64,000 nucleotides of DNA from Microcaldota archaeon (lineage in GTDB: Archaea > Micrarchaeota > Micrarchaeia > Micrarchaeales > CABMGC01): NCBI GenBank assembly GCA_021818995.1, contig JAKASP010000001.1, positions 1 to 64,000 on the forward strand. The letters are read 5' to 3'. The first letter of the stretch is position 1; each line of letters starts with the position of its first letter. The notes under the pieces were generated by a model. The model was not told the origin of the DNA, did no database searches, and saw only the letters and a list, made by a program, of their open reading frames with translations. Made by a program: the position numbers and the translations under genes. Below, in pieces: positions 18,429 to 51,954 of this stretch.

Positions 18429-18986
18429 ATGCCGATTAAAGGTAGAAAAGGGATTTGGATGAATAGAATTGGAGCTAAGAGATTGAAAGCGCAGAGCGCG
18501 ATGGAGTACCTGATGACCTACGGGTGGGCGATACTGATTATCGCGGTGGTGCTCGGCGCATTGTTCAGCCTGGGAGTGTTCAGCAGCAGCAACCTGCTCG
18601 GAACCAGCTGCATAGCCTATTCCGGCTATACGTGCACAAACCCCCTGCTTCACTCGAGCACTTTCACAGCAACTGTAGGCCAGGCAACGGGAACCTCGTG
18701 GACAGCAACCAACGTACTGCTTCTGCAGTACGGCACTGGAACCCCGGTAGCTGCGGCGTTCGCTGCTGCGGGATGCTCTGACCCAGTAACGGGCGGACTC
18801 TCATCGGGCCAGACGTTCAACGTAATATTCACTCAAGCTGCGACAACCACAAGCACGTGCTCTGCTACGCCGCTTGCTGTGAGCGTGGGAAGCTCATTCT
18901 CTGGCAGCATATGGGCGTTCTACACGGCCGCAGGAACGAGCGGGCTCATATCGCAGGTAGCCACGCTGAACGTGAAGGCATCATAG
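18429..18986 (+). CDS. class III signal peptide pilin (copy 2)
   Basis: KAQSAMEYLMTYGWAILIIAVVLGALFSLGVFSSSNLLGTSC, near-identical to copy 1. Confidence 0.85.
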   Translation: MPIKGRKGIWMNRIGAKRLKAQSAMEYLMTYGWAILIIAVVLGALFSLGVFSSSNLLGTSCIAYSGYTCTNPLLHSSTFTATVGQATGTSWTATNVLLLQYGTGTPVAAAFAAAGCSDPVTGGLSSGQTFNVIFTQAATTTSTCSATPLAVSVGSSFSGSIWAFYTAAGTSGLISQVATLNVKAS

Positions 18987-19062
18987 AACTCAGGTTTGAG
19001 AACAAGTTTCTCGCGGTCAGCCATAGCTATAAGAATATAGCCGACGAAGTTGGAGTTGGCGC

Positions 19063-19650
19063 GTGCCCAGAGTTGCTTGCATGATCCCGGCGAAGAAGGA
19101 GCACCTTATCATCTATCTGTGGGCCGTGGCCATAACTGTGGCCGGCCTGCTGGCAGTCTACAACCTCAGCGTCCTGAGCCTCACGAGCTGGGAAACGGTC
19201 TCGTGCGTCGCTCAGCCTGGCTTCGTATGCGAGAGCCCCCTGCTCGACGTATACGGCAACCTCTCCCTGGTGCTCGGCCAGCGCCTGAACACCACGCTTT
19301 ACAATGTTGGCCTGTCGTGCACGACCAACGTCAGCTCGTACGGACTTCCTGACCCGCAGAGCGCGATGGTTGAGATTTCGGGAAATGCCACAAACTTCGG
19401 AGCCGCAACGTCCCAGCCCGCTTCACCCGAAGCGAACCCGACACGCTACACGCCATTGAACATCTCGACAAACCAGAGCGTAGTCGTAACCAACCTGAAC
19501 TGTTTCAGGTATAACGGCAAGCCCTACATAAGGCCCAGACCCACCGAGGGCTTTTCGGCTTACATACTGATCAACTACACCACCAACTCCAGCACAAGCA
19601 GGGGATCGTGGCTTACCGCCGAGGTGGCTAGGATCGCCTCAAGGACCTAA
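19063..19650 (+). CDS. pilin-like secreted protein without the class III motif
   Basis: One TM, then SCVAQPGFVCESPLLDVYGNLSLVLGQ matching the pilin Cys-pair domain. Confidence 0.55.
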   Translation: MPRVACMIPAKKEHLIIYLWAVAITVAGLLAVYNLSVLSLTSWETVSCVAQPGFVCESPLLDVYGNLSLVLGQRLNTTLYNVGLSCTTNVSSYGLPDPQSAMVEISGNATNFGAATSQPASPEANPTRYTPLNISTNQSVVVTNLNCFRYNGKPYIRPRPTEGFSAYILINYTTNSSTSRGSWLTAEVARIASRT

Positions 19651-19653
19651 TCG

Positions 19654-20178
19654 ATGATAAAGATGCGTAAGAACATGAAAGCGCAAAGCGCGATGGAGTA
19701 CCTGATGACCTACGGGTGGGCCATCCTCATAATCGCAGTGGTGCTCGGAGCGCTTTTCAGTCTTGGACTTTTCAACAGCAATGTTGCGCTTGGCACCAGC
19801 TGCCTCGCCTATTCAGGATACTCGTGCCAAAATCCCACGCTGCACATGGGCACCTTTACCGCGACACTCAATAAGGTGTCGGGGTCGTCCTGGTTGTCGA
19901 CAAACATAATAATCGTGCTGAGCGCAGCGGGTACGCCATCGGTCTCGTCGTTCTCAGTTGCGGCATGCCTGCCAATGTCGGTCGGCACCCTAAACGACGG
20001 ACAGGGTTTTTCGTTCAGCACAGTAAACGCTATCACCGGGAGCTCTGGGACCACATGCTTTACGCTGCCAAACACTGTCGGGACCTCGGTCAACGGGGCC
20101 ATCTGGGCCGAGTACACGGTGGGCAGCACCACTGGAGTAATCTCGAAACTGGCGACACTGAACGTCAAGGCTACGTAG
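19654..20178 (+). CDS. class III signal peptide pilin (copy 3)
   Basis: KAQSAMEYLMTYGWAILIIAVVLGALFSLGLF. Confidence 0.85.
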   Translation: MIKMRKNMKAQSAMEYLMTYGWAILIIAVVLGALFSLGLFNSNVALGTSCLAYSGYSCQNPTLHMGTFTATLNKVSGSSWLSTNIIIVLSAAGTPSVSSFSVAACLPMSVGTLNDGQGFSFSTVNAITGSSGTTCFTLPNTVGTSVNGAIWAEYTVGSTTGVISKLATLNVKAT

Positions 20179-36167: not shown

Positions 36168-37319
36168 ATGCCTGCTTTATTCGAATCGATGCCGAAGGAG
36201 TTCGTGTCCAGCACCTCGTTCTACGATTACAAGACGCCGATAACAGAGACCCTGGAGAGGGTCAGGAAGCAGGGCGCTGTGGTGGTCCTGCGCGACAAGG
36301 AGTACTACGGGATGGTGGACGACAGGTCCCTGTTCAGGACAAGGAACCTGAAGCCATTGAGCTTCTCGAAGAGCTTCCCCGTTGGCAAGTTCGCCAGGAA
36401 GCTGCCGGTCCTCGACTCGGACACGTCGCTCGGCATGCTGATCAGCTACTTCCACGACTTTTCTGCGAAGGCGCTGCCCTACCAGGAGGGCAGCAAGATA
36501 GCCGGCATAGTCAAGAGAGACGTAGTAGTAAGCACGATAATCTCGCTGCACATGCTCTCAAAGGCCAAGGTTTCAGACATAATGTCATCGCCCGTAGTCT
36601 CTATAGACCGCGAAGCCAACATCGCCCAGGCTGTCAGCGCGATGGGAAAGAACAACATCGCGAGGCTCGTTGTGCTCGATAGCGGGGACAGGCTCTCGGG
36701 CCTGCTCTCCATGCGCGACGTCTCAGACATGCTGGCCAAGCCGCAGGAGAGGCTTCCTGAGAGGAAGTCGTACACGTTCTCGCCTTCCAACGTCCCGGTT
36801 TCAAGCGTTATGCGCACTCCGGTGTACACGATAGACTCCAACAAGTCCGCAGAAGATGCTGCGCGCCAGTTGCTGGAGAAGAGGGTGTCGTCGCTCGTGG
36901 TCGTGCACAACGCCAGGCCTGTCGGGATCGTCTCTACAAGGGACATAATAGAGAGCGCGGCTGCTACCACGGCCAAGACCCAGAGCCGGGTCGTTCTCTC
37001 GGGCCTCGATGAGAACACGCGCGAGTACGAGCAGGAGCTGCGCGACGCGGTCAACAGGCTCGTTTCGAAGATCGACAGGTTCGAGAGGATCGACGTCGAT
37101 TACGTTGCGGTCAACGTGAAGAGGCACAGGGAGAGGAACTATGAGATGCACGCGAGGCTCGCACTGCGAAAGCGCGGAACTGTCTTCGCGCACGCATCCG
37201 GCTACACGCTGGACAGCACGCTTTCAGATCTCACTGACAGCATCTACAAGCGCGTGCGCGAGAGGAAGGAGGGTTTCCTCGACAAGAGGAGGCTCGCGGA
37301 GAGGAGATATGAGGAATAG
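36168..37319 (+). CDS. CBS-domain protein with C-terminal HPF/RaiA-like domain
   Basis: CBS repeats (VSDIMSSPVVSIDREANIAQAVSAMGKNNIARLVVLD; VSSVMRTPVYTIDSNKSAEDAARQLLEKRVSSLVVV); C-terminus YEQELRDAVNRLVSKIDRFERIDVDYVAVNVKRH...AHASGYTLDSTLSDLTDSIYKRVRERKE. Confidence 0.75.
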   Translation: MPALFESMPKEFVSSTSFYDYKTPITETLERVRKQGAVVVLRDKEYYGMVDDRSLFRTRNLKPLSFSKSFPVGKFARKLPVLDSDTSLGMLISYFHDFSAKALPYQEGSKIAGIVKRDVVVSTIISLHMLSKAKVSDIMSSPVVSIDREANIAQAVSAMGKNNIARLVVLDSGDRLSGLLSMRDVSDMLAKPQERLPERKSYTFSPSNVPVSSVMRTPVYTIDSNKSAEDAARQLLEKRVSSLVVVHNARPVGIVSTRDIIESAAATTAKTQSRVVLSGLDENTREYEQELRDAVNRLVSKIDRFERIDVDYVAVNVKRHRERNYEMHARLALRKRGTVFAHASGYTLDSTLSDLTDSIYKRVRERKEGFLDKRRLAERRYEE

Positions 37320-37776
37320 GATGAGGCTTCAGTCGAGTTTCGAGCTTCTAGTCACGCTTGCGTTCGGACTCGCGATACTGCTTCCGCTCGTGATAATCGC
37401 CTTCATCCAGCTCGCAGGGGCGAACGCGAACCTGTCAGCGATAGAGTCGCAGCAGGCTGCAAGCAAGCTCGCCAGCGTCGCCACCCTCATAGGCAGCCAG
37501 GGGCCCCCTGCAAAGCAGCTGGTCCAGATACAGGTGCCGCCGAACGTGAGGTTCATCTACGTGGGCAACGTCAACAACACGGTAGGGCACGAGGTGATAT
37601 TCGTGATAACCTCGCCATCGGGCCTGAGCTACGTGACCGCGTACACGCCGGTCAACGTAAGCGGGAGCCTTGGCGGCATAACCTCGACAGGCGCATACCT
37701 TGTTAACGTAACAGCGACCTCCGCGTGCCCGAGCAACAACGCTGTGCCCTGCGTGTACATGACGCCGAAGGTATAG
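37309..37776 (+). CDS. pilin-like protein
   Basis: MRNRMRLQSSFELLVTLAFGLAILLPLVIIAFIQ N-terminus; start ATG 37309. Confidence 0.65.
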   Translation: MRNRMRLQSSFELLVTLAFGLAILLPLVIIAFIQLAGANANLSAIESQQAASKLASVATLIGSQGPPAKQLVQIQVPPNVRFIYVGNVNNTVGHEVIFVITSPSGLSYVTAYTPVNVSGSLGGITSTGAYLVNVTATSACPSNNAVPCVYMTPKV

Positions 37777-37777
37777 A

Positions 37778-40700
37778 ATGCAAGCAAAGAAGCTGCAGAT
37801 CGCCCTGGAATACATGATCATCTTCGCCTTTGTGCTAGTCGTATTCCTGTTCATATTCGCCCTTGTAGCGAGCCAGCGCGCCCAGACGTCGAGCAGCCAG
37901 ATATACTCGCAGGAGCAGCTGATAGCGCAGAGCGTGGCAACGCAGCTCGACACCGCGCTGCGTGCTGGTAACGGCTACGTCGCAAGGATTCCGATCACCG
38001 GAGCGATAGGCACGCTCGCCTACCAACTCCTGGTAACGAAGAACGGCGGGGTCATAGTAAACGCGACCGTGGGCAACGAGGCGCTTCAGGCGTTTGCGTT
38101 CAGCACAGCGAGGAACGTGCTATCGCAAAGCTCGTACATACAGACCAACACCTTCTACTACAACCTGCCGATAGCTAACGGCACGCTCTACATACAGAAC
38201 TCCTTCGGCACGATCTGCGTAGACTACTCGTGCCCCAACACGAGCACGCAGGCGGCTAACATCAGCCTTTCGAGCCAACTGGTCCACGCGCTGCCTCTCA
38301 ACCATACCGCGGGCTCGTACGTTGCGCTTGGAACAACAGGAAACAACATTGCCGCTCAGGTGACGGTATCTGGCTGGATAAACCCTGCGAGCCCGAACGG
38401 AGGATACAACTACGTATTCTCAAATGACCGCGACTGCTGCGGAAGCTATAAAGGATACGACCTTCGCGTGGCTTCGAACAAGGCGTGCTTCCAGATATGG
38501 GATTCGGGATCGATCAACCACGGGGTTTGTAGCGCGGCGACAATACAGGCTAACAAATGGTACTTCGTGGCTGGCACGTATGACGGCAGCAACGTTAGAG
38601 TGTATCTAAATGGAGTACTGGCAGGCACGCTCGCCTTCTCGGGCACGATAGGCACGCCTGCTTCGTACAATAGCGCAATAGGAGGTCTGGGTCTCAATCC
38701 TGCTCAGTATGATGTTAACGGCATGCTTGCGAACGTACAGCTCTACAACATCTCGCTTTCCGGAACGCAGATCACGCAACTGTACAGCGAGGGCATAGCC
38801 GGAACGCCGCTCATACCAGCGAACACAGTGGGCTGGTGGCCCCTCAACGGAAACGCCAATGACTACAGCGGCAACGGCAACACGGGCACGATCCATGGAC
38901 CGGCTTTCTTCCCTTCTGTTGCACAGCTCTTCGCAAAAGTGACGAGCCCGCAGGGTTTCGTGCTCGGCAACACGCTCGTTGGATTCGAGACCTCGCTAGG
39001 CACGTTCTTCAGTGCTAACCAGTTCGCGACCAACTTCACTAACGCGAATGGCGTGGCAACAGCGCTCTTCACCCAACAGTCGAACAGCGGACAGGCGACT
39101 GTCAGGGTAACGGCCTACAACGGGAATACGGCGTTGCAGGGCAACCTCATCGGCTGGTGGCCTTTGGGACTTGGGCAGGTCAACAGCACCTTCGATCTCA
39201 GCGGGAGCAGCAATGCAGGAATGCTCAAGGGTGCGGCAGGCTGGGTAAACCCCAACTTTGTAGCAAACCTCGGAGGGCAGAGCAGCTACATTTATGCTAC
39301 CAACGCACTTACCGTCACTTCGGCCGGCACATACGACGTCATATCGTTCTGGATGTACTGGAGTGGAAAACCCAACGTTGTGCCATTCTCGTTCGGTTCC
39401 CCGAGCAACTACAACCTCTGGATAAACGGCGCGTCGTGCCTGGGATTCAACACAGGCAACGGCGACGACTATGGCATTAATTTCTTGAACTACACCAACA
39501 GGTGGATATTCGTGACCGCCGAGTTCTACAACGGCGCGTACAACAAGAACAGCTTCCTGTACATCAACGGCGCGAATCAGTCGCTGACGCAGTGCGCGGG
39601 CAGCGCGGGCTCGCAGACAGCGTCTAACGTGCTGGTCGTGGGAGACAATAGCGGGCTGAACAGCTTCTACTACAACGGCTCGATCGCGAACGTGCAGGTA
39701 TACAACGGCATAATGGCAGCTTCACAGATAACGCAGCTTTACAATCTTGGCATATCGGCAACACCGTACTCGACAAACCTCGTTGCCTGGCTTCCGCTCA
39801 ACGGGAACGCGAACGACTACAGCGGCTACAACAACAATGGCACAGTCTACGGCAACACAAACTTCGTGAGTTCGCCCACGAATGAGAGTACCGGAAACAA
39901 TGCCACCTCTGTGCTGAGCGCAAGATTCAACGGAATAGACAGCAAGGTCACAGGCAACCTTCAGAGTTCGCTCTTTCCCATAACGGCGACCACATGGATA
40001 AGCGTCAATGCGTACGCGCCAAATGACATAGCCGAAGTTGCATATTTCGACAACGGAAAATGGCAGGCATTCATACAAACGAGCGGCTACTCCCAATGCA
40101 AGCTCGGCTCGCTTTGGTGGTGGAACTCTTCGGAGTCCATGTGCACCGAATTCACGGTGCCCCTCAGCACCTGGACCATGCTCACCTACGAGGCCAATTC
40201 CACACAGATGAGAGCGTGCATCAACGCCGTCTGCCAGTCTTATTACCACAGCGTCAACGCCCCTATCTCCGGAGTCCTTCCTTTCACGATAGGCGGACCG
40301 GGCCACAAGTACTTCAACGGAAACATAACCAACTTTCAGGTCTACAATAAAACGCTGTCATTGCAGCAGCTGCGGCAGATATACCAGCAGGGCGTGGGCG
40401 GTGTTCCGCTCTCAAACAGCAGCCTGGTCGCGTGGTGGCCGCTTGTCGGCAATGCCAACGACTACAGCGGGAACGGGAATAACGCCACAGCCACAAATGT
40501 GATTTATACAGCAAGCACAGTGGGGCTTCCTGCCACACCGTCTCCATTCGCAGGAACGGGCGTGGAGTTCAACGGACAGAGCTCTTATGTGCAACTTGCG
40601 CAGCAACCCGGCTGGACCTCAGCACTCACTATTTCTGCATGGGCGAACACCTACGCTCCACCGACCACAGGGAAGTCCAGGGAAGTATTCAACAACAATC

Positions 40701-41107
40701 AGCTATTCCTGAGGCTGAGCGGAGATGCCAACAACCACGGCTACGACTGCTTCCTGCGGCTTTCAGACGGCACAGTCGAGCCCCGTGCAGCGAGTCACTT
40801 CTCACCCAACGTGAATACGTGGAACATGGTGACGTGCAGTTGGGACGGAACGACGCTGTCTATATACGTTAACGGCGTGCTGAAAGGCACTTCAACGCGA
40901 AGCGGTACAATAAACTCGATAACAGAAGGCCCGTACGTAGGTGCCACGGAGCAGCAGAACCTGCCACCGAACAACGAGTGGAACGGATCGATAAGCGACG
41001 TGCAGATGTACAAGACCGCGCTGACTGCGCAGCAGATCCAGCAACTTTACAATTCCCAGGCTCCGCCTTCTGCTTCCGCATTAATACCGGTGAGTTGGTA
41101 CCCATGA
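37778..41107 (+). CDS. large pilin-anchored protein with multiple LamG-like modules
   Basis: N-terminus MQAKKLQIALEYMIIFAFVLVVFLFIFAL; repeated LamG-like segments each ending QI.QLY..GI.G.PL then WWPLNGNANDYSG. Confidence 0.8.
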   Translation: MQAKKLQIALEYMIIFAFVLVVFLFIFALVASQRAQTSSSQIYSQEQLIAQSVATQLDTALRAGNGYVARIPITGAIGTLAYQLLVTKNGGVIVNATVGNEALQAFAFSTARNVLSQSSYIQTNTFYYNLPIANGTLYIQNSFGTICVDYSCPNTSTQAANISLSSQLVHALPLNHTAGSYVALGTTGNNIAAQVTVSGWINPASPNGGYNYVFSNDRDCCGSYKGYDLRVASNKACFQIWDSGSINHGVCSAATIQANKWYFVAGTYDGSNVRVYLNGVLAGTLAFSGTIGTPASYNSAIGGLGLNPAQYDVNGMLANVQLYNISLSGTQITQLYSEGIAGTPLIPANTVGWWPLNGNANDYSGNGNTGTIHGPAFFPSVAQLFAKVTSPQGFVLGNTLVGFETSLGTFFSANQFATNFTNANGVATALFTQQSNSGQATVRVTAYNGNTALQGNLIGWWPLGLGQVNSTFDLSGSSNAGMLKGAAGWVNPNFVANLGGQSSYIYATNALTVTSAGTYDVISFWMYWSGKPNVVPFSFGSPSNYNLWINGASCLGFNTGNGDDYGINFLNYTNRWIFVTAEFYNGAYNKNSFLYINGANQSLTQCAGSAGSQTASNVLVVGDNSGLNSFYYNGSIANVQVYNGIMAASQITQLYNLGISATPYSTNLVAWLPLNGNANDYSGYNNNGTVYGNTNFVSSPTNESTGNNATSVLSARFNGIDSKVTGNLQSSLFPITATTWISVNAYAPNDIAEVAYFDNGKWQAFIQTSGYSQCKLGSLWWWNSSESMCTEFTVPLSTWTMLTYEANSTQMRACINAVCQSYYHSVNAPISGVLPFTIGGPGHKYFNGNITNFQVYNKTLSLQQLRQIYQQGVGGVPLSNSSLVAWWPLVGNANDYSGNGNNATATNVIYTASTVGLPATPSPFAGTGVEFNGQSSYVQLAQQPGWTSALTISAWANTYAPPTTGKSREVFNNNQLFLRLSGDANNHGYDCFLRLSDGTVEPRAASHFSPNVNTWNMVTCSWDGTTLSIYVNGVLKGTSTRSGTINSITEGPYVGATEQQNLPPNNEWNGSISDVQMYKTALTAQQIQQLYNSQAPPSASALIPVSWYP

Positions 41108-41643
41108 AAGCGCAATTCTGGTCTTTTGACGTTATCTTCGCGATGATAGTATTCGGCTCAGCGTTGATACTACTCACTTTCGTCTGGGTCAACGTGAGCA
41201 GCCAGTACGACACAGCCTACAGCTTTGGTCTGCAGACGATGCAGGCGCAGCTCCAGAGCCTCCAGTCAAGGCTACTGCTACAGGGTGTGCCGGCAAACTG
41301 GGCCTCGGTTGTCAACGTGACGAACACTAGCACATGGACCGGCGTAAGCGTGGGCCTCGGAACCGGCTTCGGGAATCGGCTGTCGCTCAGCAAGATATCA
41401 ACGCTGGCCGCGATGAGCAACTACAACCCCGGCGCATACCAAGCAACCAAGTCGCTGCTGGGCGTGGGCTACGATTATTACATAGCGATAAACAACAGCA
41501 ACTCGACGATAACCATGGGCCTATATCCATACACACGCAACCCGTATGCAATACAGGTAGCGAGGCAGTCCGCCGTGCTGAACGGTATGCCGGTGAGCGT
41601 CCAGATAATACTCTGGACCAACAAGAGCTTCGGTGTTAGTTAA
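41104..41643 (+). CDS. minor pilin-like protein
   Basis: MKAQFWSFDVIFAMIVFGSALILLTFVWVNVSSQ; ATG 41104. Confidence 0.65.
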   Translation: MKAQFWSFDVIFAMIVFGSALILLTFVWVNVSSQYDTAYSFGLQTMQAQLQSLQSRLLLQGVPANWASVVNVTNTSTWTGVSVGLGTGFGNRLSLSKISTLAAMSNYNPGAYQATKSLLGVGYDYYIAINNSNSTITMGLYPYTRNPYAIQVARQSAVLNGMPVSVQIILWTNKSFGVS

Positions 41644-43814
41644 TGAAAGCAGTAGTCTTCACCATGGACGCTATCTTCTCGCTAGTCATAACAGTGGTCG
41701 GCATCTCCCTGCTCCTCTTCTTCCAGTACTATGCGCAGGCACCGTACAGCCTGCACTATTCCAACGCGCAGGCAATCTTCACGAACCTCGCCTCGACAAG
41801 CGTGGACTCGGTGCGTAACGGCAGCGCGATCGCGAAGTCGCTCTCCAACCAGTACATGGGAGCGAACGAAACGTGGCCTATGTTCATGGGCGGCCAGTTC
41901 TCTAACAGCAGCAACCCAATCGGACCCCTGTATCCGATACTTGCGTACAGCTTCAACCCAGCGAATACGATAACAACAGGCATAGTTGCGGGCTACGGCA
42001 ACATCTATTTTGCCGCTAACTCGATACTCTATGCGGTCAACGCCACTACTAACAGGACCGCTTGGACTACGAACACTGTGTCGAACGTGGTCAGCAGCCC
42101 CGCGCTTTACTACGGCACGATCTTCTACGCCAACGCGACGAACCTCACAGCAGCTAACGCGAACACGAATAGCATACTCTGGACCACGAATTCGATAAAG
42201 AGCGTATCTCTCACCACGCCGCTGCTTGTGTACGACAATCTCGTGTTCTTCGGGAGCAGCGACAACAAGATAAACGCGTTCTTCGCGAACAACGGGACAA
42301 ACGCCTGGTCTAAGAGCATAGGCGCGGTGCCAGTTTCGATAGCGATCGCTGGTGGTAGCCTTGCTATAAAGACAAGCACAAATGTGGTTTACGTAGCTGC
42401 ATATTCAGGAGCGTTGGCACCGGTGCCGGTTACAAGCGTAACATACTCTTCTGGCATAGCGCCAACAACGCCCGCCTATGGGGCAAACGCATTGTATATG
42501 GGCAACGGCGCGACAGCGAACGCAATGTATACGAACGGCACCGTGGTGCCTGGCTTCCCGCTCGGCGAGGCGTCGACAATCTCCGGGGTCGCCACCTACA
42601 AGAACTACACAGCGTACCAAACCGGCAGCACTGTTACCATAATTTCACCGACAGGAGGCACAGGTTGGTTGGCTTCGGTGCCTTCATATTTTGGGGTGAA
42701 TGTGGTAAACGCAACTCCCTTGATCTCCGGATCAATGGTATACACGCTCTGGACGAACGGACTTGCGGCCGAGAACCTGACAAGCGGATCGCTGCAGTGG
42801 TTCGCGCGCGTCTCCGGCGCGCCCTCATACTCATACATGACGCTGGCCTACGGCAGGATCTACATTGAGGTCAACAACCGCATCTACGCCTATGGCTCTT
42901 GCTACTCGCCGGTGCACGCGACGCTGTTATACGCGGTGGCAACTATGTCGTACAATGGACAGGGCGGATGCGAGACCGCTCTGCTGAACAGCGTATACCC
43001 GTCTGCAAACTACACGCTATTCGCAAATTCGCCGTCTACGAACACGATCGAAGCTGCAAGCTTCAACGGTGCGAAGGGATACTCGATTGCGAGGAACCTT
43101 GGAGTGCTGAACACATCATACATGAGCGTCTCGTTCTGGGTCAACATCAGCGCGTACGACCCAAGCGGGGACAGGCTCGTTAATTATGGGGACAACGGCG
43201 GCTGCCTTGCGCCGACCACTGATTGCGGGTGGTTCGTCTACCTCGGCAGCACCGGCGCCATACAGTTCGCGATAATGGCGAACGGAATGGAGACCAACGC
43301 GAACGGGCCTACGCTCAGCCTGAACAAGTGGTACATGATAACGGGAACGTACAACGGGACTAGCGTCGACGTGTATGTCAATGCAAACACGCCCTCCACT
43401 ACCAGCTTCACGGGCGCGATCTCACCGGCAAGCACGAACATCAATCTGACCATAGGGGCCGGAAGGCCGAGCGATTCGAGATACTTCACGGGCAACATTG
43501 CAAACGTGCAGCTCTACAGCCAGTCGCTCGGAGTGCAGCAGATAGCCGCGCTATACAGGGGAGGGGCTGCAGGGGTACCGGTAAAGGGCTACGGCCTGGT
43601 GTCGTGGTATCCGCTTGCTGGAGACACGAACGATTACGCTGGCTTCAACACCGGTTTCGCGGTTGGCAGCATGAAGTTCATAACCAAGACGTACACCTCG
43701 CCTGCGTTCTCCAACGCTTACGAGGTGTCGAGAGCGAGCACGCTGCTGCCTGTGCTAAACTACACGAGCGGAGCCAGCAACACGATAAGCGTTGGCATAT
43801 ATTCATGGGGATGA
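41643..43814 (+). CDS. pilin-like TM + PQQ/BamB-like beta-propeller + LamG-like protein
   Basis: MKAVVFTMDAIFSLVITVVGISLLLFFQ; repeated NRTAWTTNTVSNVVSSPALYYGTIFYAN blades; LamG-like MSVSFWVNIS...QIAALYRGGAAGVPVKGYGLVSWYPLAGDTNDY. Confidence 0.7.
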   Translation: MKAVVFTMDAIFSLVITVVGISLLLFFQYYAQAPYSLHYSNAQAIFTNLASTSVDSVRNGSAIAKSLSNQYMGANETWPMFMGGQFSNSSNPIGPLYPILAYSFNPANTITTGIVAGYGNIYFAANSILYAVNATTNRTAWTTNTVSNVVSSPALYYGTIFYANATNLTAANANTNSILWTTNSIKSVSLTTPLLVYDNLVFFGSSDNKINAFFANNGTNAWSKSIGAVPVSIAIAGGSLAIKTSTNVVYVAAYSGALAPVPVTSVTYSSGIAPTTPAYGANALYMGNGATANAMYTNGTVVPGFPLGEASTISGVATYKNYTAYQTGSTVTIISPTGGTGWLASVPSYFGVNVVNATPLISGSMVYTLWTNGLAAENLTSGSLQWFARVSGAPSYSYMTLAYGRIYIEVNNRIYAYGSCYSPVHATLLYAVATMSYNGQGGCETALLNSVYPSANYTLFANSPSTNTIEAASFNGAKGYSIARNLGVLNTSYMSVSFWVNISAYDPSGDRLVNYGDNGGCLAPTTDCGWFVYLGSTGAIQFAIMANGMETNANGPTLSLNKWYMITGTYNGTSVDVYVNANTPSTTSFTGAISPASTNINLTIGAGRPSDSRYFTGNIANVQLYSQSLGVQQIAALYRGGAAGVPVKGYGLVSWYPLAGDTNDYAGFNTGFAVGSMKFITKTYTSPAFSNAYEVSRASTLLPVLNYTSGASNTISVGIYSWG

Positions 43815-43818
43815 ATGC

Positions 43819-46425
43819 ATGAGGTTCGGAAACAGCAAAGGGCAACTGATGACGCTCATTATGCTAGTCGTATTCATACTCATGCTTGCGGAGCTATTCG
43901 CCTTCGCGCTCCTAAACATAAGCTCCAACAGCATAGCGCAATCGCTGACGGTCAGCTCCTCGTCCGCGAACTACGGCAGCCTGTTCAAGCTGAGCGCGAA
44001 CAACTTTGCGTCAGCGAGCCTCAGCAGGGCGATATCTACGCTAGCGACCTACGAGTCGACGCCGGCATACAGGAAGGCGAACCTCATCTCGAACACCAGC
44101 CAATATCTCTCGTACCTTGTCACAAACGGCGTGCTTCCTAACGACACATCTGGCTACCCGCAGAATGCGATGGGGAACCTCACGCTCAAGCTGTACAATC
44201 TTTCTGTTGCGAACGTCATCGGGTTCGTGGCGCAGTCTGTTGCAGTGAACGAGACGCAGCCGATCATATTCCAGACGGACCCGTACCACGTGCGCGCCTC
44301 ATACATAGAGAACATCGCGGTCAACTCTTCCGGGAACAACTACATGTACACAATACCTGTAAACGTTTCCGTGCCACTGAACGGAACGCCAGACCTGTTC
44401 TACGCGCAGCAGGGCATCACGAGCCAGATCAGGTTCGCGAACATCGGCAACCTGACCTCGGTTGTTGGGGGAGCTACCGCTTATTCCGGAAACGCGCTCA
44501 CCTACTCCTACGGCACTGTCTACTGGCTCTCGAGCAGCGCGAGCAGCGGGGCAACATGCGCGCAGGTGCCCGCAGGATTATCTGCGGCTTCGGCAAGCGG
44601 GAACATAATACTCGCGACGTACAACGCGATAGGTCTCGAGACCTGCGAGAACAACTACGCCGGGCTCATAGCCTATATTGCGCCCACAACGCTTCCGACC
44701 GTGCCGTACCTCATATATCCCAGCTCCTCTAACCTGCTCAGGTACATGCCTTCGGGCATGAAAGTACTCCTCTACGGCCCCGCGCTCGAGACGCTGAACA
44801 TCGAGGCGCTGAGGAGCGCTGTGACGAACGGCTACTACTTCTCCTCCCCGTTCGCATCCTCATACCTCGACAGGGCCGATGGCAACTTCAACAACCAGTC
44901 GCTCAACGGCATTTTCACGTTCTCAAACTACAACACCCAGGCGGCTGTGTTCAACGGCGGGAGCACCTACGCGTATGCCAACGCCCTGCTCGTCAACACT
45001 GCTGCAGGAGGGTACAACACGGTCTCGTTCTGGATGGACTGGAACGGCATAACGAACGTTGTTCCTTTCACATTCTCCAACCCATATCAGCTGTACCTCG
45101 ATACCGCCACATGCTTCGGGTTCAACACGGACCACAGCGATGCCTACGGGATTAACCCGACCGGCCTCTCAGGCAACTGGGTCTTCGTCACGGCTGTCTT
45201 CTACAACGGCGGAATAACCGGCAACTCGCTGATATACATCAACGGCAACCTGCAGCCTGAGACGCAGTGCGCTGGGAGCGCGAACAGCGGAACAGCATCC
45301 ACGGCAGTGCATCTAGGAACGAACGATGGGATAGGCGGGTATTATTTCGGAGGCGACCTGGCCAACGTGCAGATATACAACACGTCGCTCACTCCTCCGC
45401 AGGTGCAGAAACTCTACCAAGAGGGCATATCCGCGGTTCCGCTCTCCAACAACGCGCTGGTCAGCTGGTGGCCCCTCAACGGCAACGCCAATGACTACAG
45501 CGGGCACAGCAGCGGGAACGCGGCACTCCACAACGGCATCTTCTTCTCCCTGCTGCCGTATTACAACAGGGACAGCATCCTCAATGTCCCGGTATCCACA
45601 TCACTCTCGGCCATACCCGGAGTGCTGTCGTGCACAACAATGAACGGCTGCAGTTCGACCAAGCTCCCGAACCTCTTCCTCGGGTCGATGCCTTTGGAGA
45701 CGCAAGCCGTACAGGGCGAGGCGATGTTCAACGGCAGGAACGGCTACATAGAATCCAAGGGCACGCTACCCGCGCTCGGGACTGCGACGATACTCTGGTG
45801 GACCAACGTCAACTCCGTGCTCGGTTCCGGCGCCGGAGTCGGACCATCTGCATGCCAGATATACGAGCCTGGAGCGACAGGCTCCACTTTCGCGGTGCAG
45901 TTCGACCCGTGCACGTGCACCGGCTACACCACGTGCAGCTCAAACGCCGCAATCTCACCTCCGACAAAGACGTGGGTGATGGTCGCGTTCGTGATAAACG
46001 GCAACCTGATAAACTCGTACGCGTACTACGGCAACACGGTGCTGCAGAACAACGCGCTCATTGCCACGACAACGCTTACAATTCCGTCTACGCACTTCTA
46101 CATCAGCAGCTACGCCGGCAGTGCAATCTACAACCACTTCAGCGGCGGAGTGCTTAATGTGCAACTCTACAACACGCCGCTTACCATAAGCCAGATAGGC
46201 TCGCAGTACCGTCTCGGCGCATATGGTCTGCCCCTGACAGCCAACCTGATAGGCTGGTGGCCGCTCAGCGGGGACCCCCGCGATTACAGCGGGAACGGAT
46301 ATAACGGCATGGCGGTCAACGTCACGTTCCCATACTTCTCCGGCGTGAACACCGATCCGGGAATATCGTCTCTGCCAGCGTTCGCGAACGAGTGGCAAGC
46401 TCTCGGACTGACGGCGCCGCAGTAG
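43819..46425 (+). CDS. membrane-anchored LamG-like surface protein
   Basis: MRFGNSKGQLMTLIMLVVFILMLAELFAFALL; two LamG-like modules; WWPLNGNANDYSG, WWPLSGDPRDYSG; start ATG 43819. Confidence 0.7.
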   Translation: MRFGNSKGQLMTLIMLVVFILMLAELFAFALLNISSNSIAQSLTVSSSSANYGSLFKLSANNFASASLSRAISTLATYESTPAYRKANLISNTSQYLSYLVTNGVLPNDTSGYPQNAMGNLTLKLYNLSVANVIGFVAQSVAVNETQPIIFQTDPYHVRASYIENIAVNSSGNNYMYTIPVNVSVPLNGTPDLFYAQQGITSQIRFANIGNLTSVVGGATAYSGNALTYSYGTVYWLSSSASSGATCAQVPAGLSAASASGNIILATYNAIGLETCENNYAGLIAYIAPTTLPTVPYLIYPSSSNLLRYMPSGMKVLLYGPALETLNIEALRSAVTNGYYFSSPFASSYLDRADGNFNNQSLNGIFTFSNYNTQAAVFNGGSTYAYANALLVNTAAGGYNTVSFWMDWNGITNVVPFTFSNPYQLYLDTATCFGFNTDHSDAYGINPTGLSGNWVFVTAVFYNGGITGNSLIYINGNLQPETQCAGSANSGTASTAVHLGTNDGIGGYYFGGDLANVQIYNTSLTPPQVQKLYQEGISAVPLSNNALVSWWPLNGNANDYSGHSSGNAALHNGIFFSLLPYYNRDSILNVPVSTSLSAIPGVLSCTTMNGCSSTKLPNLFLGSMPLETQAVQGEAMFNGRNGYIESKGTLPALGTATILWWTNVNSVLGSGAGVGPSACQIYEPGATGSTFAVQFDPCTCTGYTTCSSNAAISPPTKTWVMVAFVINGNLINSYAYYGNTVLQNNALIATTTLTIPSTHFYISSYAGSAIYNHFSGGVLNVQLYNTPLTISQIGSQYRLGAYGLPLTANLIGWWPLSGDPRDYSGNGYNGMAVNVTFPYFSGVNTDPGISSLPAFANEWQALGLTAPQ

Positions 46426-46437
46426 CGCGGGCATGGT

Positions 46438-47430
46438 TCACACTCCGCTTATGCTGGTGAATATACCGCCTATTAGCGACGAGACCACGAAGAAGACCCC
46501 GAGCCCGACTAGCAGGAATGCGGGCAGATACCGTAACCCTTTGAGCACCGAGCCCGTAGATATAGCCGACACTATGAACGCACCGAAGCCGCAGATAAGT
46601 ATAACGCTTGCAAGAGCGAAGTTGTGATATGCTTCTACCGTTATCTTCGGAGGGCTCGGCCTCAGGAAGGAGACGCCGGCTGTAGGCAGGCCTCCGGGGT
46701 TCTGTTTGAGTATTCCGGCCCAGACCGTATCCGTAACCCCGATCATCTGCGATGTGAGCGCGTAGAGCACCGGGGCCCCGATAAGCGCCGCGAATGCTAT
46801 GAATATTGTATACATGAACAATTGTCCCGATATCTCCCTCTGGACCATGTGCTGGTTTCGTATGTCCTTCGCTATCTGGTTGAGAAGGTCGGTCATGCCT
46901 CCACCGTACTGTATGCCCTCGGTCATCATGCGTATCGTGTGCTGCAGCTGTAGCGACCTGTACCTCTTGCCGAGGTCGACCAGCGCCTGCTGGAGCGTCG
47001 TTCCGCTGTACAGCTCCTTGTTCATCTCCTTGACGTCCTCGCTGAAGAACCCGAATTCTGGCCTCGCGGCGAGCACCATCGACTTGTCAAGTGCTATTCC
47101 GCTTCGCACGTTCGCAGATGCGAGCTGCAGGTAGTCCGGGAGAAGGTCCTCAACGAACGTCTTTCTCTGCTCGATCTTGAACTCGAGCAGGCCGTAGATC
47201 ACGACCTCGAAGATCGCCGCGGAGATTATGCCAGCAAGAGCGGATATCTCGACGTTTATTCCTGCGCCGAGTGTGAGCGCGAACGGGATCACTATGAAGA
47301 GTCCGAGACCGCCAACTATCAGGATCTGCAGGAACTTGTTTATGTTCATCTTCACGCCTGCGAGCTGGAGCTCGCGGGCGAGCAGGTTTACGACGCTCCT
47401 TGATATCAGTCTCTCGTATTCTATCTTCAT
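46438..47430 (-). CDS. tadC: type IV pilus assembly membrane protein (TadC/ArlJ-like)
   Basis: DLLPDYLQLASANVRSGIALDKSMVLAARPEFGFFSEDVKEMNKELYSGTTLQQALVDLGKR (T2SSF). Confidence 0.85.
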   Translation of the reverse strand: MKIEYERLISRSVVNLLARELQLAGVKMNINKFLQILIVGGLGLFIVIPFALTLGAGINVEISALAGIISAAIFEVVIYGLLEFKIEQRKTFVEDLLPDYLQLASANVRSGIALDKSMVLAARPEFGFFSEDVKEMNKELYSGTTLQQALVDLGKRYRSLQLQHTIRMMTEGIQYGGGMTDLLNQIAKDIRNQHMVQREISGQLFMYTIFIAFAALIGAPVLYALTSQMIGVTDTVWAGILKQNPGGLPTAGVSFLRPSPPKITVEAYHNFALASVILICGFGAFIVSAISTGSVLKGLRYLPAFLLVGLGVFFVVSSLIGGIFTSISGV

Positions 47431-47434
47431 GAAC

Positions 47435-48595
47435 TCACATGGCGAAAGTTGGCCTCGATGACCTCATTATGTTAAGGAATATGACCTGCAGGAAGAAGAT
47501 GCCTATGACCGCGAAGAGCAGCGTGTTCTCATCAACTGTGAAGAGGTTGATGAACGTGGTGAGTATGGCCGCTACCGCTATCCCCATGCTCGGGAAGATC
47601 ACCCCGAAAAGCATGTAGAACATGGCGAGCGCGTTTAGCCTCTGCCCATACCTCCTCAACTCTATCACACGCTCCTGCTCGACCTCGTCGACAACACCCT
47701 GGAGCGCGCTGACCACGTCGGCGCCTGCCTTCAGGCTGACAGTCGCCTGAAGCATTATCCTCTTGAACGTCTTTGACTGCGACCTGTTGCTGACCTCGTC
47801 GAGCGCCTGCTCTATCGGAGTGCCCAGCTGCACCAGCTCCACGACCTTGGCGAACTCCAGGCTCGCGGCGCCGTAGCCGGTGCTGACAGCGGTGATCGCG
47901 TTGAAGAGCGGCATTCCGGATCGCATGCTTATGACAAGGTCCCTGGCTGCGAAGAGTATGTCCTTCTCTATGTCCTTGCCCAGCACCTTGCTCCTGTCAA
48001 GCGGGTATCGTATGAACCTATTGAATAGGCCGAAGTAGCACGCGGCTCCGAGGACAATCGCGAGGATGGGAGTCAGGCCGTAGATGATCAGAAGGGCGCC
48101 CACAGATACCATGATTACCGCGCTTATCGCTACCGAGTAGATGAACATCTTCCTGACGAACTCGTAGGGGCTCTCCTTTATGTTCTGCGCCCTGAGCGCG
48201 GCCTCGAGATCCTTGTGCATGCCTGCTACGCTCATCAGGTAGAGCTGGAGCTGGTTGGGCCTGCCCTGCGGATGCTGGAGTTTTGTCGAGACCTGCTGAC
48301 GCATCTGCGAGGAACTCGGAATCTCTTGTTTCTCAGCCTTGGGTCTCGGCTTCATGAAGCTCGGAATGGATATCGGCTTGCGCGGCTGCTGCTCAATCTC
48401 CATTCCAAATCTGGGCTGGGGTTGGGGCTGCGGTTTGGGCTGCTGCTTGGTCTGCGGCTGCGGCGGCTGCCCGCTGTCAGAGTATATCGGCTTTGACTTT
48501 ATCTTGAAAAAAAGGAACTTTTTGGGTTTGGTGAAGCCTACAAGCGGGCCTTTGCTCTCTTCCTTATCATCCTTCTTCTTGCCGAACAACGCCAT
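47435..48595 (-). CDS. tadC: type IV pilus assembly membrane protein (TadC/ArlJ-like) with Pro/Gln-rich N-terminal extension
   Basis: DILFAARDLVISMRSGMPLFNAITAVSTGYGAASLEFAKVVELVQLGTPIEQALDEVSNR; PPQPQTKQQPKPQPQPQPRFG. Confidence 0.85.
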   Translation of the reverse strand: MALFGKKKDDKEESKGPLVGFTKPKKFLFFKIKSKPIYSDSGQPPQPQTKQQPKPQPQPQPRFGMEIEQQPRKPISIPSFMKPRPKAEKQEIPSSSQMRQQVSTKLQHPQGRPNQLQLYLMSVAGMHKDLEAALRAQNIKESPYEFVRKMFIYSVAISAVIMVSVGALLIIYGLTPILAIVLGAACYFGLFNRFIRYPLDRSKVLGKDIEKDILFAARDLVISMRSGMPLFNAITAVSTGYGAASLEFAKVVELVQLGTPIEQALDEVSNRSQSKTFKRIMLQATVSLKAGADVVSALQGVVDEVEQERVIELRRYGQRLNALAMFYMLFGVIFPSMGIAVAAILTTFINLFTVDENTLLFAVIGIFFLQVIFLNIMRSSRPTFAM

Positions 48596-48612: not shown

Positions 48613-49227
48613 TTACTTGATATTCAGTCTGCCTTTTATCTCTTTAATTCTTTGGTTTCTCATGAGGACGAGTTCGCGCTGGTCCGCGCTCATCCTGCTC
48701 GTGTCCTCCCGCGCGGATATCTGCGACATCCCCTTTATCTCGTCGACTATTATGCCGAGCTGCTCGTCGTTGAAGACGTTCTCGTTGAGCCCTTCCTTTA
48801 TCTTCTCAAGGTCCGAGAGCTGGTCCTGCACCGAAAGCTTCGGCATCACCAGCTCTGCCTCCTTCGCCTGTTCCATCTTGGTCGAGACGCTTTCGGCAAG
48901 TTCCTTTCCGGCGCCGCCCACCATGCTCCTGAGCCTCGATGCTGCGCTCACCGTCTCTCTGGTGACCTCGCGCTTCGGCACGCGGACCTGCACCTGAGCC
49001 TGCGCCTGCGGTCTCGGCTGCTGAGGCGCTGCGGGAACCGTCTCGGTTCTCCGCACCTCGCCCCTCTCGAGAATCCGGTCGGCTTCGGCGTACTTGAGGG
49101 TCTTCACCTCCAGCCTGTTGGCAAAGACATCGCCAACGTCTATCGTGGCCTGCTCACCCACGTTCGAGGCCTCCATCGAGTCCACGAGCGACGCAGCACT
49201 TTCGTAATCTGAATAGGAATCCAACAA
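48613..49227 (-). CDS. hypothetical helical protein of the pilus machinery operon
   Basis: 204 aa between tadC and tadA, Q/P-rich linker. Confidence 0.5.
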   Translation of the reverse strand: MLDSYSDYESAASLVDSMEASNVGEQATIDVGDVFANRLEVKTLKYAEADRILERGEVRRTETVPAAPQQPRPQAQAQVQVRVPKREVTRETVSAASRLRSMVGGAGKELAESVSTKMEQAKEAELVMPKLSVQDQLSDLEKIKEGLNENVFNDEQLGIIVDEIKGMSQISAREDTSRMSADQRELVLMRNQRIKEIKGRLNIK

Positions 49228-49232
49228 AACAC

Positions 49233-50750
49233 CTACAACCTCTCCATCAGCTCCTTCGAGTACGGCTGGTTGCTCTCGACCATCTTGAGCACGCCATCGG
49301 GGCTCCTGTAGTAGCTCGAGACAACGTAACCCGCGGCATCGACGTCCACAACGTTGTTCTTGACCATCCAGTTGAGTACCTTCTTCTTGTCTTCGAGGTT
49401 ATTGGCTATCTCGCTCCTCTCGTAGCCTCCGTACAGGGATATCGTCTCGCTCATCCTCGCCAGCTCAGCTATCTGCGTGAATGCGTCGTTCCTGGTGTCC
49501 CACCTGTATATCACGTTGACGTCGCCGCTCCTGAGCATCTCCGAGAACTCGAGTACGCGCCTTATTCCGAGCCTCCTGTGCCTGAAGAGCGATATCACTC
49601 CTCCGAATGCGTTGAGCATGAGCTTCGGCACCTCGATTGGCGGGTTGGTCATACGCACTATAGTGTCCTGCGCGTTATCCGCGTGCACAGTGCCGTAGAC
49701 CGCGTGGCCTGTGTGTATTGCCTCGAAGAGCGTCTGCGCGTCGTCCTTGGTACGCACCTCTCCTACGAGCATCACGTCGGGCCTCTGCCTGAGCGCGTTG
49801 ATCATGAGGTTATAGAGAGACACTTCGCCCTTGCCCTCCGGGTTCGGCTGCCTTGTGAGCATGGGCACCCAGTGCAGGAAATTGGGAAGCGTGAGCTCGC
49901 GGTCCTGCTCTACAGAGATTATCCTATGCGTCGTTGGTATGAAGATGCTCATCGCGTTGAGGAAACTGGTCTTTCCGCTTGCGGTTCCTCCGGAGATGAG
50001 TATGCTGACCTCGTTCTCCACAGCCAGCCAGGTGAGCGCCGCGACATCGAGGTTTAGCGTTCCGTTGGCGATCATCGCGGTCATGGTCCACGGGTTCTTT
50101 CCGAACTTCCTTATCGTGATCGTGTTTCCTTTCTGCGATATCGGGTAGAGTGTCGCGTTGACTCGCGAGCCATCCGGAAGCTCGGCGTCCATGAGGGGCG
50201 AGAGGTTGCTTATCTGCCTGCCTATCCTCCTCCCTATCTGCTGCGCATCGTCGTAGATGACGTCCTCGCTCTGTATCAGCAGGTTGGTCTTGCACCACCC
50301 GAACTTCTTGTGGTAGACCCAGACCGGCTCCTTGGACGTATTCACTGCGATTTCCTCTAGGTTGTCGTCAGCCAGGGGTATCTCCAGGTCGCCCAGGCCG
50401 AGCATGAAGTTGACAACGTAAGCTATCAGCACCTTCTTCGTGTCCGGCGTGGAACCGGGCAGGTACCTGTCTATGATTATGTTCGCGGCCTCTATGTACT
50501 TCTGCGTAAGCTCGTCTACGTATTCCCTGTCCTCTATCCTCGACGGGTCTATGGGGACCATCGAGAGAAGCTCCTGCCTGAGCGAGATGAGTAGAACCTT
50601 GGTTGCGTCGCCGAGGCCAGGCACGGTCACCTCGTATATCGGTATGAAGCTGCCCTTGTCGGCTATGTTTATCTTTACCTTCAGCCCGTGGGCGTCGAGC
50701 TCGTAGGAAGCGTACTCCTTTCCTCCGTGTGTTGGTTGCGCATCCTGCAT
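49233..50750 (-). CDS. tadA: TadA/VirB11-like secretion ATPase
   Basis: ILISGGTASGKTSFLNAMSIFIP; RQRPDVMLVGEVRTKDDAQTLFEAIHTGHAVYGTVHAD. Confidence 0.95.
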   Translation of the reverse strand: MQDAQPTHGGKEYASYELDAHGLKVKINIADKGSFIPIYEVTVPGLGDATKVLLISLRQELLSMVPIDPSRIEDREYVDELTQKYIEAANIIIDRYLPGSTPDTKKVLIAYVVNFMLGLGDLEIPLADDNLEEIAVNTSKEPVWVYHKKFGWCKTNLLIQSEDVIYDDAQQIGRRIGRQISNLSPLMDAELPDGSRVNATLYPISQKGNTITIRKFGKNPWTMTAMIANGTLNLDVAALTWLAVENEVSILISGGTASGKTSFLNAMSIFIPTTHRIISVEQDRELTLPNFLHWVPMLTRQPNPEGKGEVSLYNLMINALRQRPDVMLVGEVRTKDDAQTLFEAIHTGHAVYGTVHADNAQDTIVRMTNPPIEVPKLMLNAFGGVISLFRHRRLGIRRVLEFSEMLRSGDVNVIYRWDTRNDAFTQIAELARMSETISLYGGYERSEIANNLEDKKKVLNWMVKNNVVDVDAAGYVVSSYYRSPDGVLKMVESNQPYSKELMERL

Positions 50751-50754
50751 CTGT

Positions 50755-51954
50755 TCACTTCGCCATCTCGTCGATGCCCTTCTTCACGTCCTCTACCTTC
50801 TTGTTCACCATCTCCACCTTCTTCGCGGTTTCGTTCATGCGCCCTTCGACCTGCTGCATCTGCATGCTCTTCTCAGCCACCTTTGACGTGTCGAGAGCCG
50901 AGATCGCCCTCAATTGCTCCTGGAGCTCGTCGAGCTCCTTCTTGAGATCGTCCTTCTCCCTTGATATAGAATCTATGCTATTTTTAATCCCATTCAGCCT
51001 GTCGCTGAGGTCCGAGAAGCCTCCGAACTGGGCCTTCATGTCAGAGAGCGTCTTCTTCACGTCGCCTATCTGCCTCTCTGCCACGGAGTACACCTTCCTG
51101 GCGTCGTCGCTGGATTTGGCTATGTCGTCGAGCATACGGGCGCGCTCGCGCGTTACCTGACGCTTCATAGCATCAGATTCCTGCTTGTATGCGCGCAGTG
51201 AGGAGTCGTAGTCCTGCACCTCCTTCTCCCTCTGGCCGAGCGTATCCTTCAATAGCTTTGTCTCTTCCTTCACGCTCTCTGCGAGTTCTGCGAAACCGCG
51301 CCTGCTCTGGTCCAGCGTAGAGTTCACGCTTGCGTTTAGCGCCTTCAGCCTGCCCTCAGAATCATCGAGCTTGGCCCTTATGTCGGCTATCGTGCGCCTC
51401 GAGTCGCTGTCGTTTCCGGTTATCGCTGAAGCAGCCTTGGCCTTCTCCTCTATCTCGGCAGCTTCCTTGTCGAGCTTTGCAGAGAGCTGGTCTATGAAGT
51501 CCTTCTTCTCCTTCAGCCTCTTGTAGGAGCCGTCGACCTGCAGGCTCAGCCTGTCTATCTGGTCGATTGCCTCCTTGACCTGTCCGGCTTTCTGCTTGAA
51601 TGCGCCCTCCGCGCCAGATACGTATTTCCTGAACTCGTCAAGCTTGACGTTGACCTGGTTGATCATGTTTACTTGGCTGGCGAGCTCAGCCTCCGCAACG
51701 CCCCTCTTCAGCTCTACTGTCTTCTTCGCTACCTCCACGCCCTCCTTTGTGACAGTCATCGGCGAGACGAACATCTTGCCGAGCTTGTAATTGACCCTTA
51801 CTATCTGCGCCTTCTCGAGCACGTCGGCCCATGTCTCTATTATGCCCTCGCTCACCTTCAGTGCCGCGGCTAGCGTCGTTGAATCCGTTTCGCCGTGCTC
51901 ATTGAGGTACCTGACAAGGTCGTCGATACTAGTGGTAATGGGCTGGTCGGCCAT
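50755..51954 (-). CDS. N-terminal winged-helix-like + long coiled-coil protein
   Basis: LVRYLNEHGETDSTTLAAALKVSEGIIETWADVLEKAQIVRVNY then ~300 aa heptad-rich. Confidence 0.6.
   Translation of the reverse strand: MADQPITTSIDDLVRYLNEHGETDSTTLAAALKVSEGIIETWADVLEKAQIVRVNYKLGKMFVSPMTVTKEGVEVAKKTVELKRGVAEAELASQVNMINQVNVKLDEFRKYVSGAEGAFKQKAGQVKEAIDQIDRLSLQVDGSYKRLKEKKDFIDQLSAKLDKEAAEIEEKAKAASAITGNDSDSRRTIADIRAKLDDSEGRLKALNASVNSTLDQSRRGFAELAESVKEETKLLKDTLGQREKEVQDYDSSLRAYKQESDAMKRQVTRERARMLDDIAKSSDDARKVYSVAERQIGDVKKTLSDMKAQFGGFSDLSDRLNGIKNSIDSISREKDDLKKELDELQEQLRAISALDTSKVAEKSMQMQQVEGRMNETAKKVEMVNKKVEDVKKGIDEMAK

Follow-up and report, generated by a model that had tools for sequence, protein, structure and literature searches.

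We describe a locus of five consecutive pilin genes, P1–P5 (37309–46425, + strand), in a 64,000-nucleotide stretch of archaeal DNA (the window; positions 1–64,000 of contig JAKASP010000001.1, assembly GCA_021818995.1). With a probability of about two in three, we read these genes as minor pilins of an archaeal type IV pilus that form an adhesive tip, with LamG cores exchanged over evolution on a conserved scaffold. Of all that the locus shows, the exchange of LamG modules on a kept pilin scaffold tells us the most. The source genome (484,794 bases, 4 contigs, completeness 63%) is that of a tiny acid-loving archaeon and belongs to the Micrarchaeota, a DPANN lineage that is regarded as host-dependent, in agreement with the lifestyle surmised in a preliminary description of this DNA made from the sequence alone.

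The five genes abut or overlap, and each starts with a short leader and a single hydrophobic helix, as that description had noted. P1 (37309–37776; 155 amino acids; class III-type N-terminus Q-S-S-F-E) and P3 (41104–41643; 179 amino acids; KA/QFWSFD), the most conserved marker of the locus, are small pilins. The other three are modular: P2 (37778–41107; 1109 amino acids; Q-I-A-L-E) comprises a stalk, four LamG modules and an immunoglobulin-like linker; P4 (41643–43814; 723 amino acids; KA/VVFTMD) carries a BamB/PQQ-type beta-propeller (Pfam E = 3e-14) followed by one LamG module at about 42972–43568; and P5 (43819–46425; 868 amino acids; KG/QLMTLI, without an acidic residue) continues into a long helix and a domain of about 280 residues without a Pfam match before its two LamG modules. 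Pfam bears out the proposed LamG ectodomains of these three proteins, placing four LamG_3 (PF13385) matches in P2 (E = 7e-64), one in P4 (7e-22) and two in P5 (2e-17). The hidden Markov model envelopes in P2 span 38210–38797 (LamG1, residues 145–340, with an exchangeable core), 39176–39754 (LamG2, with a core 52% identical to that of P5 LamG1 in the same genome), 39815–40396 (LamG3, without a close relative, the best being 31%) and 40442–41062 (LamG4), all on the + strand like those of P5 at 44860–45429 (LamG1, exchangeable) and 45631–46221 (LamG2). Of eight LamG matches in the source genome, seven fall inside the locus, a share that is provisional because the genome is 63% complete.

The N-terminal signatures of the five pilins are distinct from one another and preserved across up to 77 loci. 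P1 begins with QSSFE or QASFE, with E5 in 25 of 25 homologues, and P2 with Q-x-x-x-[ED], the residue at position 5 being acidic in all 62; P3 (Q[FI]WS[FL]D) and P4 (F[ST]xD) have D6 in 76 of 76 and 59 of 59 homologues, respectively, one FTTD included. P5 follows the pattern [KR][GA]-x-x-x-[TS]-[LIV]-[hydrophobic or small] and has an acidic residue at position 5 or 6 in none of 57. A single N-terminal hydrophobic segment occurs in only 13 of 66 open reading frames of the window (the scan kept the longest frames, which displaced P1 and P3 and left P2, P4 and P5 to be counted) and, since tens of related genomes show the same signatures and the same gene order, we conclude that this cluster of pilin-type N-termini is not due to chance.

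Elsewhere in the window, three similar class III pilins (KAQSAMEYLMTYGWAILIIAVVLG, 173–184 amino acids) lie at 17865–20175 (+), with a degenerate fourth neighbour at 19063–19647. They look like candidates for the major pilins, for which reason P1–P5 are probably minor pilins. A class III peptidase, presumed in the preliminary description, has its counterpart in a single A24 prepilin peptidase of 283 amino acids elsewhere in the genome (C2:240561); one such enzyme per genome is typical (35 of 39 genomes searched). No EppA-type peptidase was found in the locus, the prepilin peptidase sitting about 190 kb away.

The gene set is kept across the order. P3 is present in 51 of 59 relatives, nearly all of them Candidatus Micrarchaeota metagenome-assembled genomes (MAGs), joined by Candidatus Micrarchaeum sp. 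A_DKE (L106), whose genome is closed, and P1 and the P5 stalk are present in 54 and 45 of 57 relatives, respectively. In most loci of sufficient length, P2-P3-P4-P5 converge on an operon of two TadC genes, a 204-amino-acid protein gene and an ATPase gene; in the window the end of P5 is 12 bp from this − strand operon, confirming the reported convergence on type IV pilus machinery. LamG modules recur in 36 of 36 P2, 36 of 37 P4 and 28 of 30 P5 homologues and the beta-propeller in 28 of 37 P4 homologues, and a few P4 and P5 homologues show weak DUF2341 matches. An apparent P1-P2-P3 gene fusion in loci L085 and L090 was rejected as an artefact of long masked runs of N inside P2.

On this conserved scaffold, the LamG cores diverge sharply. 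Between the window and its sister species (L079), the ATPase, P1 and P3 are 90, 94 and 83% identical and the membrane helix and stalk of P2 are 86–87% identical, but the P2 LamG modules reach only 32–43%; the core of P2 LamG1 falls to 26% against 87% for the N-terminal scaffold. P5 repeats this pattern (helix 93%, stalk 78%, LamG modules 30–38%), with linkers between LamG modules at 59–64%, and at module edges identity drops and recovers inside tens of residues. The divergence is uneven: the P4 LamG module is 88% identical to that of L079 but 39% to those of L081 and L082, and P5 LamG2 is 63% identical to that of L081, yet 34% to that of the nearer relative L079. In close pairs from other genera the mosaic is sharper still. 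L104 and L106 are 97% identical in P3 and 92% in the P5 stalk but 31, 38 and 66% in the three P5 cores, which are 91, 82 and 76% identical between L104 and L105; the more distant L102 matches L105 at 81, 24 and 83% in cores 1, 2 and 3, and core 1 of L106 is 73% identical to that of L115. L150 and L154 keep P2 and P4 cores at 70–86%, with P5 cores at 27 and 35%, while in P2 of L083 and L084 core 2 stands at 84% between cores 1, 3 and 4 at 26–32%. Over 37 close pairs (stalk identity of at least 65%; several pairs share one genome and are thus non-independent), the scaffold is 65–95% identical and cores fall below 45% identity in 37 of 50 P5 and 42 of 81 P2 comparisons versus 6 of 40 for P4, so that exchange is concentrated in P5 and P2.

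Cores also resemble one another across genes and across distance. Fifty-two pairs of cores from different genes reach 45% identity across at least 75% of their length, among them P5 core 1 of L084 and P2 core 3 of L083 (85%) and P2 core 4 of L121 and P5 core 2 of L115 (76%, though P3 of these two is only 47% identical). For the window's own P2 LamG4, the best match (58% identity) is the first P2 slot of the distant L108, as against 34–35% to the equivalent slot in the sister species. In phylogenies, the P5 stalk groups L104, L105 and L106 with support of 98/98, and P5 core 1 rejects this clade (log-likelihood loss of 189; approximately unbiased (AU) test, P = 6e-94); the clade was picked after the identities had been seen, and the margin is large. 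Cores 2 and 3 taken alone do not reject it (P = 0.35 and 0.39).

Structure prediction had been proposed earlier as a check. An AlphaFold2 model of P3 (60 sequences; predicted local distance difference test (pLDDT) score of 89) places a 55-residue helix (residues 3–57) ahead of further helices and four strands, a predicted arrangement that would fit a pilin, although no pilin in the PDB matched the model. The model of P5 (30 sequences; pLDDT 69) shows a 75-residue helix (residues 6–80) followed by the domain without a Pfam match, and Foldseek matched its LamG part to pentraxin and laminin LG structures. A sequence search for solved relatives of P3, P2 and the P5 stalk found none.

The simplest route by which modules would travel is import from relatives through recombination in the conserved flanks. 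A seam between two replaced cores in P5 of L104 and L106 (residues 561–600) has 93% DNA identity and none of 16 four-fold degenerate sites differing, where about half differ elsewhere in the gene; it is possibly the trace of a recent recombination event. Standalone class III pilins with LamG modules had been considered as a local cassette reservoir, which is not supported in the genomes examined: those sampled are no more than 42% identical to any locus module, apart from a single pair across genomes (the standalone pilin of L151 and P5 LamG1 of L082; 58% over the core and 62% over the module).

We weighed several other explanations of these patterns. Rapid divergence in place, under diversifying or relaxed selection and without exchange, would account for LamG cores being the fastest part of P2, P4 and P5 and for the nearest relative of a module being in the same slot in 276 of 387 cases. 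It sits badly with cores from distant species or other genes that are closer than those of sister species, as in the 85% and 76% pairs above, and with the conflict between the P5 stalk and core-1 trees. At codons for identical residues, moreover, four-fold third-base differences amount to 71% in low-identity cores versus 61–62% in the scaffold and conserved cores, where selection in place would leave both equal; this suggests replacement by older copies, although chance alignment may contribute. We accordingly consider divergence in place improbable. Somewhat less so, but still unlikely, is that P1–P5 are membrane-anchored surface adhesins or decorations of the pilus shaft beside machinery that is merely a neighbour. 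Incorporation of P1–P5 into a filament is a prediction; P4 and P5 are unlinked or absent in some lineages; and a standalone 296-amino-acid class III pilin with one LamG module and a major-pilin-type N-terminus (source genome, C2:229146; L005, 1231–2121) indicates that LamG can ride on other pilins, and may also decorate the shaft. Countering this are the long-term linkage of P2–P5 to the ATPase and TadC operon, the near-invariant pilin signature at the start of each protein and the loss of the acidic residue, reminiscent of GspK, in one member only.

A dedicated switch, such as a shufflon, conversion from silent cassettes or a diversity-generating retroelement, could in principle vary LamG modules within one cell line. 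In the PilV shufflon of IncI plasmids, the C-terminal part of a type IV pilus tip adhesin can be exchanged. Core copies occur across genes of one genome, as between P2 LamG2 and P5 LamG1 in the window, while some relatives carry tandem LamG-pilin genes. Unlike the shufflon, however, the variation seen here is between lineages, and the window holds no cassettes downstream, P5 running almost directly into the convergent operon (recombinase and reverse-transcriptase families were not searched). The low identity of standalone LamG pilins to locus modules, save the L151 case, and the single LamG outside the locus in the closed A_DKE genome also speak against such a switch, which we regard as very unlikely. 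We give hardly any credence to mosaicism as an artefact of metagenome assembly or binning. Most loci do lie on MAG contigs, some of low coverage; against this, L106 is a closed genome from culture, L104 and L105 agree although they come from different records, the replaced modules are in frame on intact contigs with conserved flanks and seams, and the mosaic pattern is seen repeatedly in several genera.

Several observations weigh against the reading of P1–P5 as a tip complex with exchanged LamG cores, or narrow it. Most of the compared sequences are MAGs, and numbering the acidic residue as position 5 or 6 presumes cleavage before Q or after K[GA]. Foldseek comparison of the P3 model with the PDB returned no known pilin, only chance-level ribosomal matches, and confidence in the P5 model is middling. 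In the window's family alone does a CBS-domain gene followed by P1 head the operon; in a second family P1 is not linked to the locus, and some lineages lack P4 and P5 beside the machinery and have P3 alone there. Several relatives have P5 on another contig. Of the 34 relatives with a completeness of at least 90%, 7 yielded no P5 stalk, hence P5 is not universal. Finally, DNA identity at seams within one genome is 60–73%, with a longest exact run of 21 bp, which is too low for homologous recombination at the seams to be taken as proven.

We propose that the leaders of P1–P5 are removed by the prepilin peptidase and that the adjacent ATPase and two TadC proteins would draw the subunits into a filament, in which P1–P5 would form the initiating or tip complex atop a shaft built from other class III pilins. 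The outermost position would fall to P5, accepting no subunit above it, with P4, P3 and P2 behind; this placement rests on the missing acidic residue of P5, a feature shared with K in the HIJK complex and with PilA (below). The LamG modules of P2, P4 and P5, along with the P4 propeller, would face outward as adhesins and most likely bind the surface of another archaeon. This partner is probably one of the Thermoplasmatales, as are the hosts of cultured Micrarchaeota (PMC5498576, PMC8975820). LamG cores would behave as replaceable cassettes that recombination swaps between relatives and shifts between the slots of P2 and P5, whereas the machinery and the N-termini, stalks and linkers of the pilins are conserved throughout; since the scaffold is kept as cores are swapped, binding specificity could change without rebuilding the pilus. 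The preliminary description had interpreted the locus as an adhesive pilus or tip complex for host or glycan attachment. Its pilin-type N-termini, LamG ectodomains and convergence on pilus machinery are supported, attachment itself being plausible; that description had missed the P4 propeller, and the probable minor-pilin status and the exchange of modules are to be added to it.

Parts of this arrangement have precedents, cited here from excerpts of the publications. In the published model of the HIJK complex, K lacks Glu5 and caps the assembly; PilA of Streptococcus sanguinis lacks the residue as well, and in both cases this is read as the mark of the first, tip-most subunit (PMC9934059). The S. 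sanguinis PilA/PilB/PilC proteins (PMC9934059, PMC8179133) are likewise minor pilins of one operon, one without Glu5 and others with a bulky grafted module, which in PilC is a glycan-binding, ConA-like lectin module of the LamG_3 superfamily (PMC9934059). They differ in being bacterial and in having one lectin module rather than up to seven plus a propeller, the likeness is by description only, and the excerpts describe no module exchange. The GspH-I-J-K and FimU-PilV-W-X sets also comprise distinct minor pilins, one member lacking the acidic residue; in our locus, by contrast, P3 and P4 have D at about position 6, the ectodomains are unrelated and no homology was shown. In archaea, Golyshina et al. 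(2017) reported that LamG genes have expanded in the Micrarchaeota organism Mia14, some of them in linkage with its type IV pilus loci, and that of its two type IV pilus systems one belongs to the methanococcal/Thermococcus type (PMC5498576). According to Makarova et al. (2016), pili of this type have a pair of TadC proteins, five or more minor pilins and adhesins with DUF2341 (PMC4858521). Our locus resembles such clade 1 pili (PMC4858521) and Mia14 MIA14_0170–0177 (PMC5498576) in having a single ATPase, a pair of TadC proteins, five or more class III minor pilins and large adhesin-like proteins. It differs in that LamG-bearing adhesins form one protein with a pilin N-terminus, and in containing no prepilin peptidase, whereas EppA is often present in clade 1 loci. 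One Mia14 system has been assigned to clade 1 (PMC5498576), although equating it with the window locus rests on approximate position, and the excerpted accounts of clade 1 and Mia14 describe no module exchange (PMC4858521, PMC5498576). The LamG part of the TafC family fimbrial protein model (NCBIfam NF052521) matches P2, P4 and P5, at 77 bits versus a cut-off of 410. A literature search confined to open-licence papers turned up no account of archaeal LamG modules being exchanged. The link between LamG and pili and lectin-bearing minor pilins were thus known, and what appears undescribed is a five-pilin signature spanning the order, an architecture that joins pilin, propeller and LamG, and the swapping of LamG cores.

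Upstream, the first gene of the operon encodes a CBS-domain protein (36168–37319, +; E = 1.4e-30) that overlaps P1 and adjoins it in relatives of the same family; its C-terminal part is weakly Ribosomal_S30AE-like. The convergent operon, all on the − strand, consists of two TadC-like T2SSF membrane proteins (46438–47430, Pfam E = 6.7e-15; 47435–48595, 7.8e-15), the 204-amino-acid protein (48613–49227), the type IV pilus assembly ATPase (T2SSE; 49233–50750, 8.4e-34), with its best NCBIfam similarity to ArlI/FlaI, under the cut-off, and a 399-amino-acid coiled-coil-like protein (50755–51954), the 204- and 399-amino-acid proteins being conserved members by synteny. An exosortase/archaeosortase-like membrane protein (PF09721; 33486–35042, −) suggests sorted surface proteins. 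The class III pilins at 17865–20175 and the standalone LamG pilins have the same N-terminus. Among the relatives, a single-contig genome of 952 kb (G041, C1:581592–604298) carries a tandem array of about ten LamG-pilin genes, with four identical-score matches spaced exactly 1974 bp apart, and in Ca. Micrarchaeum A_DKE (G059, C1:258754) a LamG match lies within an open frame of 5127 amino acids, a candidate giant surface protein.

Few proteins have been put forward as the means by which DPANN archaea recognize their hosts and hold on to them. To these the locus adds conserved candidates with names, which are present in a co-culture already established (Ca. Micrarchaeum A_DKE) and probably also in Mia14. 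A broader and more tentative proposal, to which we give slightly less than even odds, is that the Micrarchaeota maintain a common pool of LamG modules, which recombine and are shuffled among tip slots (P2, P5 and less often P4), among species and occasionally among families, and that an obligately attached archaeon could in this way turn its pilus to new hosts. With the same reserve, this would be the archaeal counterpart of the swapping of receptor-binding modules in phages and the switching of tip adhesins in bacteria. The locus itself leads to a sharp prediction: host range should track the LamG cores carried by P5 and P2 rather than the species tree. Should this hold, the exchange of tip-adhesin modules that is familiar from bacteria and phages would also drive the association of one archaeon with another.

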